NCBI GenBank assembly: GCA_021108255.1
Contig: JAIORG010000180.1
Location: 1 to 47,224, forward strand
Reading direction: 5' to 3'
DNA from: Anaerolineales bacterium
GTDB lineage: Bacteria > Chloroflexota > Anaerolineae > Anaerolineales > UBA11858
Length of the DNA: 47,224 nt
Below, in pieces: positions 1,020 to 13,304 of this stretch. The position numbers and the translations under genes were made by a program. Positions within the stretch are counted from its first letter, which is position 1. Every line of letters starts with the position of its first letter. A model generated the notes under the pieces. The model saw nothing but the letters and a program-made list of their open reading frames with translations. It was not told the origin of the DNA and ran no database searches.

Positions 1020-1330
1020 AACATATCAATAAAAGCAGAGATGAAAACGAGTAAGGCTGTCTGGATCTGCCAGCGAGCCCGGAAACGGTGGAAGCCGGGT
1101 CAGAAACGACAATCTGAAAATCCTTTCGGAGCTGAGAACTGAACCCCTTTGGCAATTAAGGGATCCGGGTTCACCCCCGTTACCAAGGTGCGAGGCTGAA
1201 TCGCAGGTTCGGCAATATCCGCCATAACTATCTGAGAGTCCTCGCTAAGTGCCCGCTAATCAGTGGGAATACGGGTGGTACCGCGTGAGTTGATACTCTC
1301 GTCCCGACAGGGATGAGAGTTTTTTTATTC
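1020..1330 (+). ncRNA. T-box riboswitch leader controlling ileS (Ile specifier)
   Basis: The invariant T-box sequence GGGTGGTACCGCG is present at 1273-1285; its TGGT would pair with the tRNA acceptor end. Stem I hallmarks are also visible: an AGCGAG segment (1072-1077), the stem CCCGG/CCGGG (1078-1082 / 1095-1099), and the GGTGGAAG bulge (1087-1094). The likely specifier is ATC at 1120-1122 within GAAAATCCTTTCGGAG, an isoleucine codon matching the downstream gene. The T-box family binds uncharged tRNA and switches between antiterminator and terminator; here uncharged tRNA-Ile would raise ileS transcription. The T-box core is certain; the exact specifier base positions are my reading of the loop. 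Confidence 0.95.
1295..1327 (+). terminator. T-box intrinsic terminator
   Basis: Hairpin ACTCTCGTCCC / GGGATGAGAGT with a GACA loop and one G-T pair, followed by a run of seven T. It overlaps the T-box sequence region in the usual way, so antiterminator and terminator are mutually exclusive folds. The ileS ribosome site AGGAGG follows at 1331-1336. Confidence 0.9.
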
Positions 1331-1340
1331 AGGAGGAAGG

Positions 1341-4300
1341 ATGGCTATCAAAAAAGCGCCCAATGAAGTCGATTTTATCCAGCTGGAGCATCAAACCCTT
1401 AAGTTTTGGGATGAGATTGATGCTTTTAACAGTTTAAGATCCCTTCGCAAAGGTAAACCGCCCTGGTCATTTATCGATGGTCCAATTACAGCCAATAACC
1501 CCATGGGAGTCCATCACGGCTGGGGACGAACCTATAAGGATCTTTTTAACCGTTACTGGGCTATGAATGGCCGCGAACTCCGCTATCAAAATGGATTTGA
1601 CTGCCAGGGATTATGGGTAGAAGTAGAAGTTGAAAAGGAAAAAGGGTTTAAATCCAAAAAGGATATTGAAGGTTACGGTCTAGCAAAATTTGTCCGGGAG
1701 TGCAAAGCCAGGGTTTTGCGATACGCCGCCGTACAGACGGAGCAATCCATCCGGTTGGGTTATTGGATGGACTGGAACCAGCCTGATTTTCTCCGGGATC
1801 TGGCGGACAAATTACTGGAAGATCCTCTGCAGGAAATCACAGTTCCCGGACCAAAAGGACCTGTGACTGATACAGTGGAGCGAATTGTCGGGCGATTGGG
1901 ACTCCAGGAGCTTGGGGGCAGCTACTTCACATTCTCCACTGAAAACAATTACATGATTTGGACTTTCCTGAAGAAAACCTGGGAGAAAGGCTGGCTGTAC
2001 CGGGGAGCAGACGTGATGCCCTGGTGCCCCCGCTGCGCAACAGCAATCAGCCAGCATGAAATTGTCACCGATGGCTATGCGGAGCTCACTCACCGCTCTG
2101 TAACACTGCGGTTCCCTCTTCGCGATCGGCCAAATGAATCCTTGCTGGTTTGGACCACAACCCCCTGGACTTTAACCTCGAATGTTGCGGCTGCAGTCGG
2201 GCCTGAACTTACTTACTTGAAAGCCCAGGTAACCCTGCCTGGGACAGATGGAGAGAATCACATTGTTTACCTCTCTAAAGGAACTGCGTCTATTCTCCGG
2301 GGCGAGTACAAAATCCTGGGTGAAATTAAAGGGGCAGAGATGGAAGGGTGGACCTATGATGGTCCTTTCGATGATCTACCAGCAGCACAGTCCTCCGGCG
2401 GTGTCACTGAACTAAAAGAGCTTCAGGAAGGCATAGAGAAAAGCGCCGTTGAGTCTCATCAGGTGATTCTGTGGGAGGAAGTAGGAGAAGAAGAAGGTAC
2501 AGGGATCGTCCATATAGCGCCAGGGTGCGGAGCGGAAGACTTCCAGCTCTCGTTTGAATATTCCCTGCCGCGGATTGCTCCCTTGACTGAGGAAGGATAT
2601 TTTATCGACGGCTTTGACTGGATCACAGGCAAACACGTTTCAGAAGTGACGGATGAAATTTTTGAGAACCTGGAAGAAAAGGGGGTTCTTTACCATGTAG
2701 AACCCTACACTCACCGCTACCCCACCTGTTGGCGCTGTAAAACCGAACTCGTTTTCCGCCTGGTAGATGAATGGTTCATCAGCATGGGAGAGAACTACGA
2801 GAAAGACCGGGAAAAGCTCACAGCAGAAGAGAAGGAGTCCAGCCTGCGCTATCAGATCATGGATGTGGTGGATCAAATCCGCTGGATCCCTGATTTTGGT
2901 CACGCCCGCGAATTGGATTGGCTTCGAAATATGCATGACTGGATGATTTCCAAAAAACGCTACTGGGGGTTAGCCTTGCCGATCTGGGTATGCGAGGATT
3001 GTGAGCATTTCCACGTGATTGGCAATGAAGAAGAATTGGAAGAAAGAGCCATCGAGGGATTTGACGCCCTCAAAGGGCATACACCTCACCGCCCATTTAT
3101 TGATGGGGTAGTGTTGGCCTGTGACAAATGTGGTGGAAAGATGACTCGCATTCCCGATGTGGGCAACCCCTGGCTGGATGCGGGCATTGTGCCGTTTTCA
3201 ACCTTGAGTTTCCGGACTGATCCAGAATTCTGGGAGAAGTGGTACCCCGCTCACTGGATCAGCGAATCATTTCCGGGACAATTCAGGAACTGGTTCTACA
3301 GTTTGCTTGCCATGGGAACCGTACTGGACAACTCACCTCCTTTCCTGGAGAATTTCAGCTACGCCAGCCTGCATGCAGAAGATGGCCGGGAAATGCATAA
3401 ATCCTCGGGAAATTCAATAGAGTTCAACGAAGCTGCGGATAAAATGGGCGTGGATGTTATGCGCTGGCTGTACAGCGCGCATAAACCAGAAAACAACCTG
3501 TTATTTGGTTACCATCGCGCAGAGGAGACTCGCCGCCGGTTCATCATTCCATTCTGGAATGTCTATTCCTTTTTTACTACCTATGCTGAAATTGATGGTT
3601 GGTCCCCCGGATTAAAGGATTTTGACCCGGATTATCCTGAAGGACCTACACCAAAAACCCAAAATCCGCTGGACCGCTGGATCCTGGGCCGTTTAAACCA
3701 GACAGTAGAACAGGTCACATCAGATATGGAAAACTCAAACGCGTTTAATGCTACCCTGGGATTTGAGTCCCTCCTGGATGATCTGAGCAATTGGTATGTC
3801 CGCCGTTCCCGGAGGCGATATTGGAAAACCGAGACGGATCAGGATAAAAACACTGCCTACGAAACGCTCTGGCACGTCCTGGTAAAGATGATCCGCTCGC
3901 TGGCTCCAGTGATTCCTTTCCTTACCGAGCAAATTTACCAGAACCTTGTCAGGTCAGTATACCCGGATGCCCACCAGAGTATCCACCATACACTCTGGCC
4001 TGAAGTAGATAAAAATGCCATCGATCAAAAGTTGATCAATCAAATGAAATTAGCCCGGGAAACCGCCAGCCAGGGACTAAGCGCCCGGAGCAATGTAGGG
4101 ATCAAAGTCCGGCAGCCCCTTGCTCAGGTGCTTGTTCACGTCAAAGAAGGTCGAGCAGAACTTGACGAAGAACTGATCGAAATCGTTCAGGACGAGCTAA
4201 ATGTTAAAGACCTCTCATTTGTTCAGGATGCAAAATCCCTTCTGGCCTATAAAGTGCTTCCTGATAATCGTGCTCTGGGGCCAAAGTACGGGGCGGATTT

Positions 4301-4778
4301 CCCGAAAGTTCAAGCTGCTTTATCTGAACAGGATCCGGATGAGATTGTCAACCTGGTGAATGAAGGCAAAAACATACCCCTGGAACTGGAGGGTAAACAA
4401 ATCCTGCTCACAGCAGAAGAAGTTCTTATCCGCACTGAAGCAGCCGAAGGTTTATCCACGGTGGACAGCAAATTACTTACTGTTGCCATTGACACTGAAA
4501 TCAGTGCAGAATTACGGGATGAAGGACTCGCGCGGGAAATCATCCGCCGCATCCAGGACTTCCGAAAACAAGCGGATTTTGATATTTCTGACCGGATTTC
4601 CCTGGTTTACCAGGCTACGCCAACCCTTCAAAATGCTATCGAAACCCATCGAGACTACATCATGGAGGAGACTCTTACCTTAGAAATGAGTGAAGGTGAC
4701 CCCGAAAAAGGCATGTTCAGCGGTAGCGCCAGCTTTGAAGATGAAGAAGCGACATTGGGATTAAAAGTTGTTGAATAA
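1341..4778 (+). CDS. ileS: Isoleucyl-tRNA synthetase
   Basis: Charges tRNA-Ile in the cytoplasm. At 1145 residues it has the expected class Ia layout. The HIGH region is the variant GVHHGWGR near residues 57-63. CP1 editing segments follow (VWTTTPWTLTSN, then GTGIVHIAPGCGAEDF). Cys pairs CPRC, CWRC, CEDC and CDKC suggest zinc sites. The KMSKS loop reads MHKSSGN around residue 687, a variant with no Met between Lys and Ser. The anticodon-binding helical bundle and a C-terminal extension complete the protein. ATG at 1341 has AGGAGGAAGG immediately upstream. The T-box leader with an Ile specifier independently supports Ile over Val specificity. The HHGW and KSSGN variants resemble the divergent long IleRS of Actinobacteria/Chloroflexi and may matter for mupirocin sensitivity, which is inference. 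Confidence 0.97.
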   Translation: MAIKKAPNEVDFIQLEHQTLKFWDEIDAFNSLRSLRKGKPPWSFIDGPITANNPMGVHHGWGRTYKDLFNRYWAMNGRELRYQNGFDCQGLWVEVEVEKEKGFKSKKDIEGYGLAKFVRECKARVLRYAAVQTEQSIRLGYWMDWNQPDFLRDLADKLLEDPLQEITVPGPKGPVTDTVERIVGRLGLQELGGSYFTFSTENNYMIWTFLKKTWEKGWLYRGADVMPWCPRCATAISQHEIVTDGYAELTHRSVTLRFPLRDRPNESLLVWTTTPWTLTSNVAAAVGPELTYLKAQVTLPGTDGENHIVYLSKGTASILRGEYKILGEIKGAEMEGWTYDGPFDDLPAAQSSGGVTELKELQEGIEKSAVESHQVILWEEVGEEEGTGIVHIAPGCGAEDFQLSFEYSLPRIAPLTEEGYFIDGFDWITGKHVSEVTDEIFENLEEKGVLYHVEPYTHRYPTCWRCKTELVFRLVDEWFISMGENYEKDREKLTAEEKESSLRYQIMDVVDQIRWIPDFGHARELDWLRNMHDWMISKKRYWGLALPIWVCEDCEHFHVIGNEEELEERAIEGFDALKGHTPHRPFIDGVVLACDKCGGKMTRIPDVGNPWLDAGIVPFSTLSFRTDPEFWEKWYPAHWISESFPGQFRNWFYSLLAMGTVLDNSPPFLENFSYASLHAEDGREMHKSSGNSIEFNEAADKMGVDVMRWLYSAHKPENNLLFGYHRAEETRRRFIIPFWNVYSFFTTYAEIDGWSPGLKDFDPDYPEGPTPKTQNPLDRWILGRLNQTVEQVTSDMENSNAFNATLGFESLLDDLSNWYVRRSRRRYWKTETDQDKNTAYETLWHVLVKMIRSLAPVIPFLTEQIYQNLVRSVYPDAHQSIHHTLWPEVDKNAIDQKLINQMKLARETASQGLSARSNVGIKVRQPLAQVLVHVKEGRAELDEELIEIVQDELNVKDLSFVQDAKSLLAYKVLPDNRALGPKYGADFPKVQAALSEQDPDEIVNLVNEGKNIPLELEGKQILLTAEEVLIRTEAAEGLSTVDSKLLTVAIDTEISAELRDEGLAREIIRRIQDFRKQADFDISDRISLVYQATPTLQNAIETHRDYIMEETLTLEMSEGDPEKGMFSGSASFEDEEATLGLKVVE

Positions 4779-4790
4779 TATCATCATTTC

Positions 4791-4829
4791 AGGATGCGGG
4801 TCCCTTTCTGAAATCCGCATCCTATTAAT
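4791..4829 (+). terminator. Hairpin after ileS, probable terminator
   Basis: Perfect 9-bp stem AGGATGCGG (4791-4799) / CCGCATCCT (4815-4823) with a 15-base loop, followed by ATTAATATTT, a weak U tract. It starts 12 bases after the ileS stop and ends just before the tyrS leader promoter, so it would insulate the two synthetase genes. Confidence 0.6.
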
Positions 4830-4832
4830 ATT

Positions 4833-4841
4833 TGATATAAT
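4833..4841 (+). promoter_or_regulatory. tyrS leader promoter, extended -10 TGA-TATAAT
   Basis: Perfect TATAAT at 4836-4841 preceded by TG plus one base (4833-4835). No good -35 hexamer is visible, as expected for an extended -10 promoter. The predicted transcription start, 6-8 bases downstream, falls on or next to the ATG at 4849. Confidence 0.7.
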
Positions 4842-4848
4842 CAATCCT

Positions 4849-4899
4849 ATGACCCTGAAAAATAATCACAATCAGGTCCTGGACTATTATAGACTCTAG
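4849..4899 (+). CDS. tyrS leader peptide with tandem Tyr codons (16 aa)
   Basis: An ATG seven bases after a perfect -10 box opens a short frame encoding MTLKNNHNQVLDYYRL and stopping at TAG 4897-4899. The two adjacent TAT codons (4885-4890) lie near the end of the peptide, the arrangement seen in classical attenuation leader peptides, and the next gene is tyrosyl-tRNA synthetase. With the promoter so close, the mRNA would start at the ATG, so the peptide would be translated without a Shine-Dalgarno. Hairpins follow at once (4898-4932 and 4935-4966). Inference: ribosome stalling on Tyr codons when charged tRNA-Tyr is scarce changes folding of the downstream hairpins and raises tyrS expression. 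It is too short to be judged by coding statistics. Confidence 0.6.
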   Translation: MTLKNNHNQVLDYYRL

Positions 4900-4932
4900 A
4901 AGCGCTGACCCATAAAACAGATCAGTGCTTCT
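4898..4932 (+). promoter_or_regulatory. Hairpin overlapping the leader-peptide stop codon
   Basis: 11-bp stem AGAAGCGCTGA (4898-4908) / TCAGTGCTTCT (4922-4932) with one G-T pair and a 13-base loop. Its 5' arm starts inside the stop codon, so a ribosome terminating there would block it, whereas a ribosome stalled on the Tyr codons would block it less. It stops two bases before the terminator-like hairpin. A smaller upstream fold, GACCCTGA / TCAGGTC (4851-4878), lies within the peptide coding region. Confidence 0.6.
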
Positions 4933-4934
4933 CC

Positions 4935-4967
4935 ACACGCCCTCCCTAACGGGGGCGTGTTATTATG
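4935..4967 (+). terminator. Attenuator-like terminator hairpin before tyrS
   Basis: 10-bp GC-rich stem ACACGCCCTC (4935-4944) / GGGGGCGTGT (4951-4960), loop CCTAAC, followed by TATTATG, a modest U-rich tail. It lies 30 bases upstream of the tyrS start and downstream of the leader peptide, the position of an attenuator. No strong alternative antiterminator pairing could be found by eye, so the switching mechanism is unresolved. Confidence 0.6.
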
Positions 4968-4996
4968 TAAAGACCAGGAATAAATGGGAGAAAATC

Positions 4997-6226
4997 ATGG
5001 CAAGCAACAGAAAAATGACCATCGATGAACAAGTAGATTACTTAATACAAGGCGCTGATTATGGTGACGAGAGGCTCAAGGGGGCCATGGCTACAGAATT
5101 AAAGGAACGGCTGCTGGAAGCTGAAAAAGAAAATCGTCCACTTCGGGTTTATTGCGGGTATGACCCCACCGCGCCTGATCTGCATCTCGGCCATACCGTA
5201 ACCATGAGAAAGTTAAGCCAATTCCAGGAACTAGGGCACGAAGTAATTTTCCTGATAGGCGATTTCACATCGCTGATAGGTGATCCTTCCGACAAGGACA
5301 ATCTGAGACCTCGCCTGTCCCCTGAGCAGGTTGCCCACAATGGAATGACCTATGCTGAACAAAGCTTCAAAATACTGGATCCTGAAAAAACCGTTATCCG
5401 CCACAACGCAGAATGGTTATCAAAACTGACCTTTGAAGACCTGATCCACTTAAGCTCAAATTTCACCGTGGGACAATTTCTGACCAGGGATAACTTCGCC
5501 AAACGATTTCAAAAGAACGAAGCCATTTACCTGCACGAATTTTATTATGCCCTCATGCAGGGATATGACGCCTATACCCTGGACGCAGATGTCCAGGTAG
5601 GGGGCAGTGATCAATTATTTAACATAATCACCGCTTCCAGGAAGTTGATGACATCTCTGGGGAAGAAACCCAATATTGGGATTATCATGTCTATTTTGCC
5701 TGGAACAGACGGTGAAATCAGGATGAGCAAGTCTTTAGGCAACCATATTGCCATCACCGGCGATCCCAAAGATATGTATGGAAAAATAATGAGCATCCCT
5801 GATAAAGCAATGGGGATTTACGCCCGACTGGTGACCCGGTGGACACCTAACGAAATTTTTGAGCTGGAGTCCCGCCTGTCCCAAGGAGACCTGCATCCTA
5901 AAGAAGCGAAGATGAGCCTTGCCCGGGAAATCGTATCGATTTACAACGGCCAGCCTGCAGCTGAGGAAGCGGAAGCTGAATTTGTCCGGGTATTCCAGGA
6001 GCAAGGCCAGCCGGAAACAATGGCAGACTACAAATTGCAATCCGGTCAAACTGTCCTGGATGTCCTGGAGAAAAGCGGACTAACAGATAGCCGAAGTCAA
6101 GCCAAGCGCTTGATCCAGCAAAACGCTGTTCGCTTGGATGAAAAGAAGTTGGATAATCCTCATGCTGAATTTCCAGGCAAGGGTGTTCTGCAAGTTGGCA
6201 AGCGACGCTTCATCAGGATAGTCTAA
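4997..6226 (+). CDS. tyrS: Tyrosyl-tRNA synthetase
   Basis: Charges tRNA-Tyr. The 409-residue protein has the class Ic signature HLGH at residues 63-66 (within DPTAPDLHLGH), the tyrosine-pocket segment VQVGGSDQLFN, and the KMSKS loop RMSKSLGN near 242-249. A C-terminal S4-like RNA-binding domain follows (SRSQAKRLIQQNAV, then VQVGKRRFIRI). The frame is open further upstream to 4925, but ATG 4997 is chosen because GGGAG lies at 4986-4990 and the protein then begins like the family. Starting at 4925 would place the start inside the leader hairpins. Expression is probably set by the leader peptide and hairpins upstream. No partner gene follows; the next gene is convergent. Confidence 0.97.
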   Translation: MASNRKMTIDEQVDYLIQGADYGDERLKGAMATELKERLLEAEKENRPLRVYCGYDPTAPDLHLGHTVTMRKLSQFQELGHEVIFLIGDFTSLIGDPSDKDNLRPRLSPEQVAHNGMTYAEQSFKILDPEKTVIRHNAEWLSKLTFEDLIHLSSNFTVGQFLTRDNFAKRFQKNEAIYLHEFYYALMQGYDAYTLDADVQVGGSDQLFNIITASRKLMTSLGKKPNIGIIMSILPGTDGEIRMSKSLGNHIAITGDPKDMYGKIMSIPDKAMGIYARLVTRWTPNEIFELESRLSQGDLHPKEAKMSLAREIVSIYNGQPAAEEAEAEFVRVFQEQGQPETMADYKLQSGQTVLDVLEKSGLTDSRSQAKRLIQQNAVRLDEKKLDNPHAEFPGKGVLQVGKRRFIRIV

Positions 6227-9952: not shown

Positions 9953-10593
9953 ATATTAAATTAAATGCGCCCGTCTCGACTGCAATTGCTATCGGAGTGG
10001 GGATTATCGTCCTGGCCGGGTACTTTATCCCGTCAATCACCAATATTCGTTTCGCTTTATTGCGGACAGGACTGGTGCTGGCTGCGGTTGCACTGCTGGT
10101 TGGAATCATTAATCTACTCACAGTCCACTTCAAGAAGCTGGGGCCTGACAACGAAAACAGCGGTTACAGTCTCATTCTAATCATCGCTCTTTTATTGACT
10201 TTAGTGATTGGTATTATTGACATGGTCCAATCATACATGTTTGGACAATCCAATTTCCAGATGACAAATTGGATATTCACAAATATTCAACTGCCAATTG
10301 AAACCAGTTTATTAGCGGTAACAGCCGTCAGTCTGACCTACGCCGCAGCCAGTATCCTGCGAAAAAGAATGGATCTTTTCTCAATTACTTTCTTTTTTGT
10401 GATTCTCCTGGTTCTACTCGGCTCGTTTTCTATTCCCCCTGCTACTCTTCCCTTCCTTCATATCATTCGTGATTGGATTGTTCGTGTTCCAGCACTCGGA
10501 GGAGCGCGCGGACTGCTGCTAGGAATCGCACTAGGGACTATAACCACCGGGATCAGGATCCTGATGGGAACAGACCGCCCTTATGGTGGCTAA
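9949..10593 (+). CDS. Polytopic membrane protein of the envelope cluster
   Basis: 214 residues starting at GTG 9949, which overlaps the stop of the DUF6754 gene, so translation is coupled. About six hydrophobic helices are visible (around residues 10-30, 36-60, 74-95, 115-133, 140-160 and 180-205) with short loops, one containing KKLGPDNENSG. There are no signature motifs of transporters or enzymes. The stop codon is two bases before the ATG of the zinc-ribbon gene. Probably a membrane scaffold or channel component of the same complex, by operon position only. Confidence 0.75.
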   Translation: MNIKLNAPVSTAIAIGVGIIVLAGYFIPSITNIRFALLRTGLVLAAVALLVGIINLLTVHFKKLGPDNENSGYSLILIIALLLTLVIGIIDMVQSYMFGQSNFQMTNWIFTNIQLPIETSLLAVTAVSLTYAAASILRKRMDLFSITFFFVILLVLLGSFSIPPATLPFLHIIRDWIVRVPALGGARGLLLGIALGTITTGIRILMGTDRPYGG

Positions 10594-10595
10594 CG

Positions 10596-13304
10596 ATGAC
10601 TGATATCCTCTGCCCCACCTGCGGTAGGCCCAATCCGGACAATCAAGGGTCTTGTGAATTTTGCGGTAGTCCCCTGGGTACTGATGATTCATCCTTACGT
10701 AATGACCTCTTCCCAGCTAAAGATATCAATGCCCCTGGCCGTCACCCGCCAGTTGAACCCGATGATTCGTCACGCCTGGATGACTTCTTAAAACCAACCG
10801 AACCCGCAGGCTCGTCCCTGAGAAATGATTTCTTCCCACCCGAAGAAAACGACGATCATGGCAGCCTAGAGCCGACCGGGCTAAACGATTCATCCCCACT
10901 GAAAGATTTTTTCTCGTCTGAAGACCTTGGCAATCAAGAAAGTATCCAACCAACCGAACCAGACGATTCGTCACGCCTGGATGACTTCTTAAAACCAACC
11001 GAACCCGCAGGCTCGTCCCTGAGAAATGATTTCTTCCCACCCGAAGAAAACGACGATCATGGCAGCCTAGAGCCGACCGGGCTAAACGATTCATCCCCAC
11101 TGAAAGATTTTTTCTCGTCTGAAGACCTTGGCAATCAAGAAAGTATCCAACCAACCGAACCAGACGATTCGTCACGCCTGGATGACTTCTTAAAACCAAC
11201 CGAACCCGCAGGCTCGTCCCTGAGAAATGATTTCGTTCCACCCGAAGAAAACGACATCCGTGACATCCTTGAGCCAACCGGGCTAAACGATTCGTCCGCC
11301 TTGAAGGATTTTTTCTCGTCTGAAGACCTTGGTGATCAAGAGAGCATCCAGCCAATAGAATCGGATGATTCTTCCCCATTGGATGACTTCCTCTCAACTA
11401 AAGAAATCGACGATCAAAACAACCTCCGTGCAGCTGAACCTCTGGAAGATGCCAAACCAGATTCAGAGCCAACATCTTTTTCCGGGGACTCAGGATGGCT
11501 GGACATGCTGCAAGATCCAAACTCGACCATCGATGAAGATCAGGAATCTGAGGCAGCGCCTGTATCCGCTCCAACTGTAGATAAACCCGGCACCGACTGG
11601 CTTGAAAAAATTAAAAGATTGAATAAGAGCGCCGATGAAGTAGAAGAAGACTCTTCTTTTCCCGATTGGTTGTCAGTTACAGAAAAACCAGAAGGGGAAC
11701 CGAAAGCAAAACCGGAGGAACCAGAGTCACCTGCAGAGGATGTGCCAGACTGGCTTCAGTTGGATGATGATGATGATCAACTGAATGATTTCCTGCAAAA
11801 AAAGGATCTCTATGACTCAGAAATCAAATCCGAGGATTCCGGGGAAACGATCTCTGAAGAAGAGGAATCACAAGCACCCGCTGAATTATTTGAGGAGGGC
11901 GTCGAGCACAAGAAATTCCCGTCCTGGGCAGCTGCCCAGGACAGCGCACCTCAAAATGGCGCTCAGGAAATTCCGGAAGAACTTCAGTTCCTTGCCGGGG
12001 TTGAACCAGATTCAATTACAGATCAGATAGTTGACCCCTTCCAAGGCGAAGAAGAGGAATTCTTTGATGATTTATTTAGCGAGGAACTTCCCGGCTGGCT
12101 GACAACTGCTTCTGAAGAAGGCGCTCAGATCGCTGAAGATGAAATATCACGTGGTGAATTACCAGGCTGGGTGGAAGCAATGCGTCCAGTGGTTGAATCA
12201 TCGGATATGACTGGCTTATCTGAAGACGAGGATTATATCGAGAATTACGGTCCTCTGGCCGGAATCCCCAGCGTTCTTCCCGCAGAAGCTGAATTTGCCC
12301 TGGATCCAGAACAAGCTGCCATGAAACCGCTTGACCTCACAGCATCTAAATCGCACCAGGAATATGTAAATCTGCTGAAAAAGCTGATCGGGGAAGAGAA
12401 GAAAGTAAAACCCATTACAAAAGTCGCCCCGGTTCAAACTCAAAGAATTCTCCGCTGGTTAATTGCCATCATTTTGATCATTACAGTAGGAGGAACAATT
12501 ATCTTTGGGGGAACTATTGAGACCAAAATACCGCCAGAAGATCAAGTCAATTCTTCAGGCTATGGCGCTTTATTTAATCAAATCGATGAGCTATTCGACG
12601 GACAACCTGTTCTAATAGCCTTCGATTATCAACCCGCCGCAACTGCTGAAATGCACATTGCTGCAGCCTCTGTCGTTGACCATCTGATGGAACAGGGAAC
12701 ATATCTTTCGTTTGTGTCCACGCAACCGACCGGACCCGTATTGGCCGAGCATTTCCTGACTTCTACCCAGGAAAAACACGGTTATATACACAATCAGCAA
12801 TATATCAACCTGGGATATTTACCCGGGGAATCTGCAGGTTTGGTAAGCTTTGTCATCGCTCCTAAAAAAATCATTCCCCTCGCATTTGATGGAAGTAACG
12901 CCTGGGGATCTCCTCCCCTGGTTAACGTGGATTCAATCAGCGATTTTGCTATGATCCTGGTTATTACAGATGATCCCAATACAGCAAAAAGCTGGATAGA
13001 ACAGGTGGGAACCCATCTTAAAGATACGCCCTTGAATATGGTGGTCAGCGCTCAAGTAGAACCATTAATCCAGCCTTATTTCCGGGCTTCTCCCCAACTG
13101 CTCTCAGGGTATGTAGCAGGGGTAATTCACAGCTTGAATTATGAACATCTCCGGGAACAACCAAGCCTGGCAAGTACAGCCTGGCTTCCCTATAATATCG
13201 GCATTATCATCACTGTCGGGACAATGTTTATTGGCGGATTGGCAAATGGCGTGCTTTCCTTATTTTCTCGCCACAGAGCCAGACAAATAGGAGAGATTAA
13301 GTGA
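10596..13304 (+). CDS. Zinc-ribbon, acidic-repeat, two-helix membrane protein
   Basis: 902 residues. Cys6, Cys9, Cys20 and Cys23 form a zinc ribbon (CPTC, then CEFC). Residues ~30-270 are about eleven degenerate acidic repeats of the type DDSSxLxDFFxxE, encoded partly by perfect 201-base tandem copies. Residues ~285-540 carry repeated Trp-Leu motifs in acidic context (SGWLDML, TDWLEKI, FPDWLSV, VPDWLQL, LPGWLTT, LPGWVEA). A helix near 618-640, a ~220-residue domain and a second helix near 864-890 end the protein. Likely a long, disordered, acidic cytoplasmic arm with a compact domain across the membrane. The ATG at 10596 is two bases after the previous stop; the upstream in-frame extension overlaps the preceding gene and is rejected. 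The 3' end overlaps the next gene by four bases. Function unknown. Confidence 0.85.
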   Translation: MTDILCPTCGRPNPDNQGSCEFCGSPLGTDDSSLRNDLFPAKDINAPGRHPPVEPDDSSRLDDFLKPTEPAGSSLRNDFFPPEENDDHGSLEPTGLNDSSPLKDFFSSEDLGNQESIQPTEPDDSSRLDDFLKPTEPAGSSLRNDFFPPEENDDHGSLEPTGLNDSSPLKDFFSSEDLGNQESIQPTEPDDSSRLDDFLKPTEPAGSSLRNDFVPPEENDIRDILEPTGLNDSSALKDFFSSEDLGDQESIQPIESDDSSPLDDFLSTKEIDDQNNLRAAEPLEDAKPDSEPTSFSGDSGWLDMLQDPNSTIDEDQESEAAPVSAPTVDKPGTDWLEKIKRLNKSADEVEEDSSFPDWLSVTEKPEGEPKAKPEEPESPAEDVPDWLQLDDDDDQLNDFLQKKDLYDSEIKSEDSGETISEEEESQAPAELFEEGVEHKKFPSWAAAQDSAPQNGAQEIPEELQFLAGVEPDSITDQIVDPFQGEEEEFFDDLFSEELPGWLTTASEEGAQIAEDEISRGELPGWVEAMRPVVESSDMTGLSEDEDYIENYGPLAGIPSVLPAEAEFALDPEQAAMKPLDLTASKSHQEYVNLLKKLIGEEKKVKPITKVAPVQTQRILRWLIAIILIITVGGTIIFGGTIETKIPPEDQVNSSGYGALFNQIDELFDGQPVLIAFDYQPAATAEMHIAAASVVDHLMEQGTYLSFVSTQPTGPVLAEHFLTSTQEKHGYIHNQQYINLGYLPGESAGLVSFVIAPKKIIPLAFDGSNAWGSPPLVNVDSISDFAMILVITDDPNTAKSWIEQVGTHLKDTPLNMVVSAQVEPLIQPYFRASPQLLSGYVAGVIHSLNYEHLREQPSLASTAWLPYNIGIIITVGTMFIGGLANGVLSLFSRHRARQIGEIK
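10764..11400 (+). repeat. Tandem 201-base repeats inside the zinc-ribbon gene
   Basis: Two copies, 10770-10970 and 10971-11171, appear identical base for base. A third begins at 11172, stays identical for about 63 bases, then diverges but keeps the pattern; a partial fourth ends near 11400. The period of 201 bases keeps the reading frame (67 residues), and each unit holds three ~22-residue sub-repeats. The near-perfect copies imply recent duplication or gene conversion, and copy number could vary or be collapsed in assembly. Confidence 0.95.

Follow-up and report, generated by a model that had tools for sequence, protein, structure and literature searches.

A putative ribosome-mediated tyrosine attenuator upstream of tyrS in the Anaerolineales

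The ileS–tyrS interval

The window, meaning the whole 47,224-nucleotide stretch of DNA analyzed here, derives from a bacterium of the order Anaerolineales. Near its start, two aminoacyl-tRNA synthetase genes, ileS and tyrS, follow one another on the forward strand (Table 1). The interval between them holds a hairpin that is probably the ileS terminator and would insulate the tyrS leader, an extended -10 element, a short open reading frame (ORF) with tandem Tyr codons near its end, and two further hairpins. The first of these, HP1, overlaps the stop codon of the short ORF; the second is GC-rich and terminator-like, and tyrS follows. Homologs of tyrS, collected by tblastn and genome search, are 35–83% identical.

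A first-pass annotation of this DNA had described the extended -10 seven bases ahead of the ATG, the short frame and its Tyr codons, both downstream hairpins, and a T-box at the neighboring ileS, and all of these are present. Its Firmicutes framing was misplaced, the host being a Chloroflexota bacterium. The arrangement is not one expected by chance: the pattern TATAAT-N5-8-ATG at the head of a short ORF whose final six codons include YY has one occurrence in the window, against 0.01 per shuffled window. Elsewhere in the window, an ORF at positions 10473–13304 has a zinc-ribbon-like start followed by several near-identical repeats of ~65 residues (SSLRNDFFPPEEN..SSPLKDFFSSEDL..).

Table 1. Features of the window from the ileS T-box to tyrS
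Feature	Coordinates	Strand	Basis
T-box leader of ileS	1029..1309	+	Rfam RF00230, 95 bits, above gathering score
ileS, upstream neighbor	1341..4778	+	1145-aa ORF; name from sequence and T-box context
Hairpin 3' of ileS, AGGATGCGG..CCGCATCCT	4791..4823	+	Read from sequence
Extended -10, TGATATAAT	4833..4841	+	Sequence
Leader ORF MTLKNNHNQVLDYYRL, 16 codons, ATG at 4849, stop UAG 4897-4899	4849..4899	+	Sequence; Tyr register conserved
Tandem Tyr codons TATTAT	4885..4890	+	Sequence; codons -4/-3 from stop
Post-stop hairpin HP1; 5' arm begins within UAG stop codon	4898..4932	+	z -5.6 vs shuffles
GC-rich terminator-like hairpin ACACGCCCTCCC..GGGGGCGTGT, then TTATTATG	4935..4960	+	Folding and congener comparison
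tyrS, tyrosyl-tRNA synthetase, 409 aa, gene controlled	4997..6226	+	Homologs

An exception in a genome that uses T-boxes

The T-box is the usual device for controlling synthetase genes; it binds uncharged tRNA directly and involves no leader peptide. Seven T-box matches are found in the genome that harbors the window, of which three exceed the Rfam cut-off; inspection of the downstream frames places six of the seven ahead of ileS, pheS, serS, thrS, leuS, and trpB. Upstream of tyrS in the window, no Rfam family, T-box included, gives a match even at E<=1, and the leaders of relatives likewise match no Rfam family. A T-box before tyrS was rejected on the grounds that its covariance model finds nothing there at that threshold. 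Since T-boxes stand at other synthetase genes and none was found at tyrS, tyrS is an exception in a T-box-using genome. The tyrS element shares with the T-box (RF00230) its target class, synthetase genes, but differs in having a putative leader peptide.

A tyrosine leader across the order

Relatives might have lacked a conserved short frame or its Tyr codons, in which case the first-pass proposal would fall; the leader is conserved. Specifically, we compared 132 tyrS upstream regions from the same order, covering nine families and 71 genera, with distant families under-sampled because the regions were taken from the better-scoring tyrS matches. An automatic scan finds a terminator-like hairpin, in some cases not the leader's terminator, in 115 of them. 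In 85 of these 115 regions, a frame that stops 5–50 nt before the hairpin carries two or more Tyr among its final eight codons. By the same count Arg (28) and Leu (23) come second and third, with the others below, and Tyr-Tyr doublets number 76 vs 16 for Leu-Leu. Among frames ending ahead of the terminator, no residue but Tyr shows strong enrichment.

Ninety leaders, from 46 genera and eight families, were collected by hand. Tyr occupies codon -5 in 81/90 and codon -4 in 73/90, and the last clustered Tyr falls at -4 in 65/90 leaders and at -5 in 17/90. The leaders come in two kinds: 49 are short ORFs of 10–30 codons, and 41 are the C-terminal end of a longer gene that encodes a PH domain. The leader is absent from most of family f13 and from all of the few f5 members sampled. 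The f13 loci that lack it, such as L102, L115, and L128, have a TATAAT shortly ahead of a Shine–Dalgarno (SD) sequence and the tyrS start, which suggests that an attenuator was lost.

Probable leaderless starts

An exact TATAAT lies 6–9 nt ahead of the start codon in 46/49 short leaders (7 nt in the window); three start with GTG, at a spacing of 6 nt. Because of this proximity, the short leaders are probably leaderless, with translation beginning at or beside the transcript 5' end. Leaderless starts look common in the lineage, as many protein genes begin 5–8 nt after a TATAAT in the window's own genome, at L177, L179, L180, L182, L191, L192, L197, L199-L202, and L204. By inspection, the TATAAT-proximal frames resemble tgt, scpA, NAD kinase, and others. 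Among 30 TATAAT-N5-8-ATG sites sampled in the window's own genome, ~13 open frames of >130 codons, and no other site resembled an amino-acid leader. Chloroflexi have been reported to use a TATAAT-type leaderless signal (PMC3160421). One congener (L019, genome G008) departs from the simple layout: what follows its TATAAT is a very small frame, MVKHYTRK, and the stop of this frame and the start codon of the YY frame overlap in the sequence ATGA, so that the Tyr leader would be translated by coupling.

A PH-domain gene whose tail is the leader

In the 41 leaders of the second kind, the Tyr register forms the C-terminal codons (..YYARP, ..YYSRE, ..YYYARG) of a gene of ~175–200 aa. Its product carries a bacterial PH domain, matched by Pfam bPH_6 in two members at E 1.7e-5 and 0.011, and, by eye, two probable transmembrane helices. 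An exact TATAAT stands 6–10 nt before the start in 36/41 cases; by the same spacing criterion, the PH gene itself is probably leaderless. In the window's family, here f1, the PH gene lies ahead of tyrS in 9/9 genomes that have it. All ten genomes of the window's genus are missing the gene, and the genus retains the short form alone.

Homologs of the PH gene that have no attenuator downstream finish with one Tyr at most (MIYMR, VVYTR, WIWKAS, WVCQQ..), and one (L267) has YY far from the stop. A YY ending at -4/-5 is found in 40/41 PH-gene leaders vs 0/12 such homologs, with a tabulated p of 5e-11 that is optimistic because several of the 12 share a genus. The register is lacking where the attenuator is lacking, and therefore the Tyr tail belongs to regulation and not to the PH protein. 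On these comparisons, the most economical interpretation derives the short leader from the PH gene by loss of all but its two ends; the opposite course, with the short leader first and the gene later, is also conceivable.

The codons behind the Tyr cluster are biased as well, with Ser or Ala at -3 in 52/90 leaders, Arg or His at -2 in 58/90, and Pro at -1 in 27/90. A proline at the C terminus could delay peptide release, holding the ribosome at the stop. Such a bias is also what an arrest motif would produce, YY(S/A)(R/H)P acting through the nascent peptide, in the manner of TnaC, and not through hungry codons. We consider arrest of this kind highly improbable: apart from Tyr, which is retained, the tails are highly diverse (YYYPL, YYPQAR, YAYAPSR, YYFSLD), leaders of 10–14 residues would hardly fill the exit tunnel, and the bias can stem from the ancestral PH gene tail. 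The register, the identity of the codons, and the linked gene tail would all go unexplained if the short frame were untranslated and HP1 and the terminator merely served, between ileS and tyrS, to end transcription constitutively or as a site of processing, and we give that idea next to no credence.

Outside f1, an overlapping antiterminator

In families other than f1, the strand behind the stop codon is complementary to the terminator loop and 3' arm and pairs with them, e.g., CCTCTGCGG with CCGCAGAGG. Other genera have the same type of pairing (GTTTTACG with CGTAAAAC; CGATGGTG with CACCATCG). When partners are swapped among 62 leaders, each leader's own pairing averages -15.7 kcal/mol vs -12.3 kcal/mol for permuted partners, and 0/2000 permutations do as well. 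The result repeats when each genus contributes a single sequence (n=38) and when short and long leaders are treated separately. Judged by this covariation, the predicted antiterminator outside f1 is a classical one that coevolves with the terminator.

Folding of the complete transcript at equilibrium favors the terminator in 46/62 of these leaders. Because the finished terminator usually wins, equilibrium folding alone is uninformative as a test of switching, and it was replaced by partial transcripts and swap tests; for the same reason, the switch must be kinetic. With the transcript 6 nt short of completion, antiterminator pairs outnumber terminator pairs in 54/62 leaders when the ribosome sits on the Tyr codons vs 33/62 when it sits on the stop. 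At 2 nt short, the corresponding figures are 29/62 and 2/62.

In f1, a hairpin flush with the terminator

The first-pass annotation could name no clear antiterminator pairing, and the family comparison accounts for this: the overlapping antiterminator, present and coevolving in other families, is not found in f1, where 1834/2000 permutations are at least as good as the native pairing in the swap test. What f1 has at this place is HP1. Its arms coevolve in the 18 f1 leaders (swap test 0/2000; outside f1, 816/2000). HP1 starts at stop -2 to +2 and ends 0–3 nt before the terminator in 17/18 f1 leaders. The stop codon is UAG in 18/18 f1 leaders vs 10/72 elsewhere (p 3e-12).

Within the window's genus, the leader codons drift except for those of Tyr, and the -10-to-ATG spacing, HP1, and the terminator are preserved, the pattern of conservation that the first-pass annotation had proposed looking for. 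Its suggested check of stem covariation likewise comes out in favor of the hairpins, with compensatory changes across nine congeners. Specifically, 90.5% of cells in the two hairpins are paired, ten cells have double changes, and 0/500 shuffles match this; slid controls give 35–53% paired. In the terminator hairpin, 94% of cells are paired in the nine congeners.

Several other pairings were considered and rejected. In the window, antiterminators formed from the post-stop strand or from the HP1 3' arm with the terminator are no better than shuffles or swapped partners. By eye, the window also shows the HP1 loop pairing with the U-tract and the leader codons pairing with the terminator 3' arm, but congeners conserve neither. 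Mimicry of tRNA-Tyr by the HP1 loops was also dismissed, as the loops share no sequence.

The lack of a computed RNA switch in the window, along with a weak, interrupted U-tract (TTATTATG), would fit a locus in which attenuation has decayed in the window's genus, the leader and hairpins being relics and tyrS being expressed by constant partial readthrough. Such decay is very unlikely, as nine congeners keep the Tyr codons, the UAG, HP1 with its compensatory changes, and the terminator against a background of drifting codons.

A different Tyr leader occurs in 6/40 upstream regions (L229, L230, L233, L234, L237, L252), the 40 coming almost entirely from other orders of the class. These leaders end in YIYxSGL, YTYSSGL, or YSYSGGL, and their UAG stop is enclosed in a long GCGGATTGTAGCG..CGCTACAATCCGC hairpin, which a terminator follows within a few nt. 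Some start behind an SD-like sequence and are not leaderless. Given these stop-in-hairpin leaders, the design with a hairpin in place of an overlapping antiterminator may have arisen more than once.

A model for tyrosine sensing

The leader, its Tyr register, the terminator, the coevolving antiterminator elsewhere, and HP1 in f1, all established by comparing sequences, make it very likely that tyrS is controlled by a ribosome-mediated, tyrosine-specific transcription attenuator. From the same features, we infer the start site, ribosome stalling, readthrough, and the action of HP1 as follows. Transcription would start at or beside the AUG of the 16-codon leader. When Tyr-tRNA is ample, the ribosome would reach the UAG and cover the RNA just behind it, the terminator would form, and tyrS would go untranscribed. 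When Tyr-tRNA is short, the ribosome would stall on the Tyr codons 3–5 upstream of the stop. A ribosome covers ~12 nt beyond the start of its A-site codon, and so one awaiting Tyr at -4 would reach just to the stop codon. With the front edge of the ribosome there, the RNA behind the stop would be free. In most families, the freed strand would pair into the terminator loop and 3' arm, constituting the antiterminator.

The RNA switch of the window would be a variant, in its predicted antitermination step above all. In f1, the freed strand would fold back on its downstream half to give HP1, directly against the base of the terminator, and HP1 would let RNA polymerase through. Readthrough would occur probably because two abutting helices cannot both close in the RNA exit channel. 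Exclusion between HP1 and the terminator would hold only inside RNA polymerase, because there the flush helix must sit in the exit channel beside the terminator. In its full form, our proposal is that HP1, which shares no base with the terminator, acts as an antiterminator by steric exclusion in the exit channel, gated by the position of the ribosome relative to the UAG, and that the leader peptide is a full-length leaderless gene, its last codons already a sensor, reduced to its two ends. We regard this compound reading as possible but less likely than not.

In folding of the free window RNA, HP1 and the terminator coexist, and the probability of the terminator is 0.95 in both ribosome positions; there is no exclusion between the two hairpins. 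That behavior is consistent with a role for HP1 other than antitermination, as is its placement, beginning at the stop, the very point to which a ribosome stalled on Tyr would extend, and ending 0–3 nt from the terminator. Tyr would still be sensed, but HP1 would be a roadblock that lengthens ribosome pausing or a pause signal for RNA polymerase, and the terminator would be overcome otherwise. For example, a stalled ribosome could crowd RNA polymerase, with HP1 leaving few unpaired bases between them. A roadblock or pause function is possible, though doubtful, and it does not account for HP1 taking over precisely the leader position that the antiterminator holds elsewhere. If steric exclusion by HP1 is true, the same ribosome logic, stop occupied or stop free, gives the right sign in both RNA designs.

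Relation to known attenuators

Attenuation of synthetase genes has precedents. In E. coli, pheST is subject to ribosome-mediated attenuation through pheM, and Lopatovskaya et al. reportedly surveyed synthetase attenuators in 2010. Attenuator leaders with leaderless starts are also known, the trp and ilv leaders of Corynebacterium being cases in point. Attenuators have been predicted for trpS and leuS in Streptomyces (PMC1262725). Like the tyrS system, pheST/pheM and the Streptomyces trpS and leuS loci have a leader frame with cognate codons and then a terminator before the synthetase gene, and the overlapping antiterminator extends the likeness in most families of the order. The tyrS system differs from them in its amino acid and gene, its probable leaderless start, and a leader formed in many cases by the end of a full-length gene; in f1, moreover, a flush hairpin replaces the antiterminator.

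Leaderless attenuator peptides include trpL of Sinorhizobium meliloti (PMC7298713), and Cys leaders are described in mycobacteria (PMC1262725). These, together with Corynebacterium trp/ilv, resemble the tyrS leader in starting at or near the 5' end and in carrying runs of regulatory codons, but they sense other amino acids and control biosynthetic genes, whereas the gene here encodes a synthetase. A search of open-access papers for a tyrS leader peptide, Tyr leader codons, or attenuation in Chloroflexi found nothing relevant. The first-pass judgment that the arrangement is little known holds in part: leaderless genes are usual in this genome and reported for the phylum, and leaderless attenuator peptides occur elsewhere, but no report of a tyrS attenuator was found.

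Here, we have described a likely addition of tyrosine and tyrS to the ribosome-sensed attenuators, none of which was found described in this phylum in our open-access search. The f1 leaders present a testable RNA design, in which an abutting hairpin takes the place of the classical overlapping antiterminator. Beyond the RNA, a whole gene, encoding a probable membrane protein with a PH domain, would serve as a sensing leader by virtue of its last codons. Sister lineages that keep the 16-codon peptide alone suggest a concrete route by which a leader peptide can originate.
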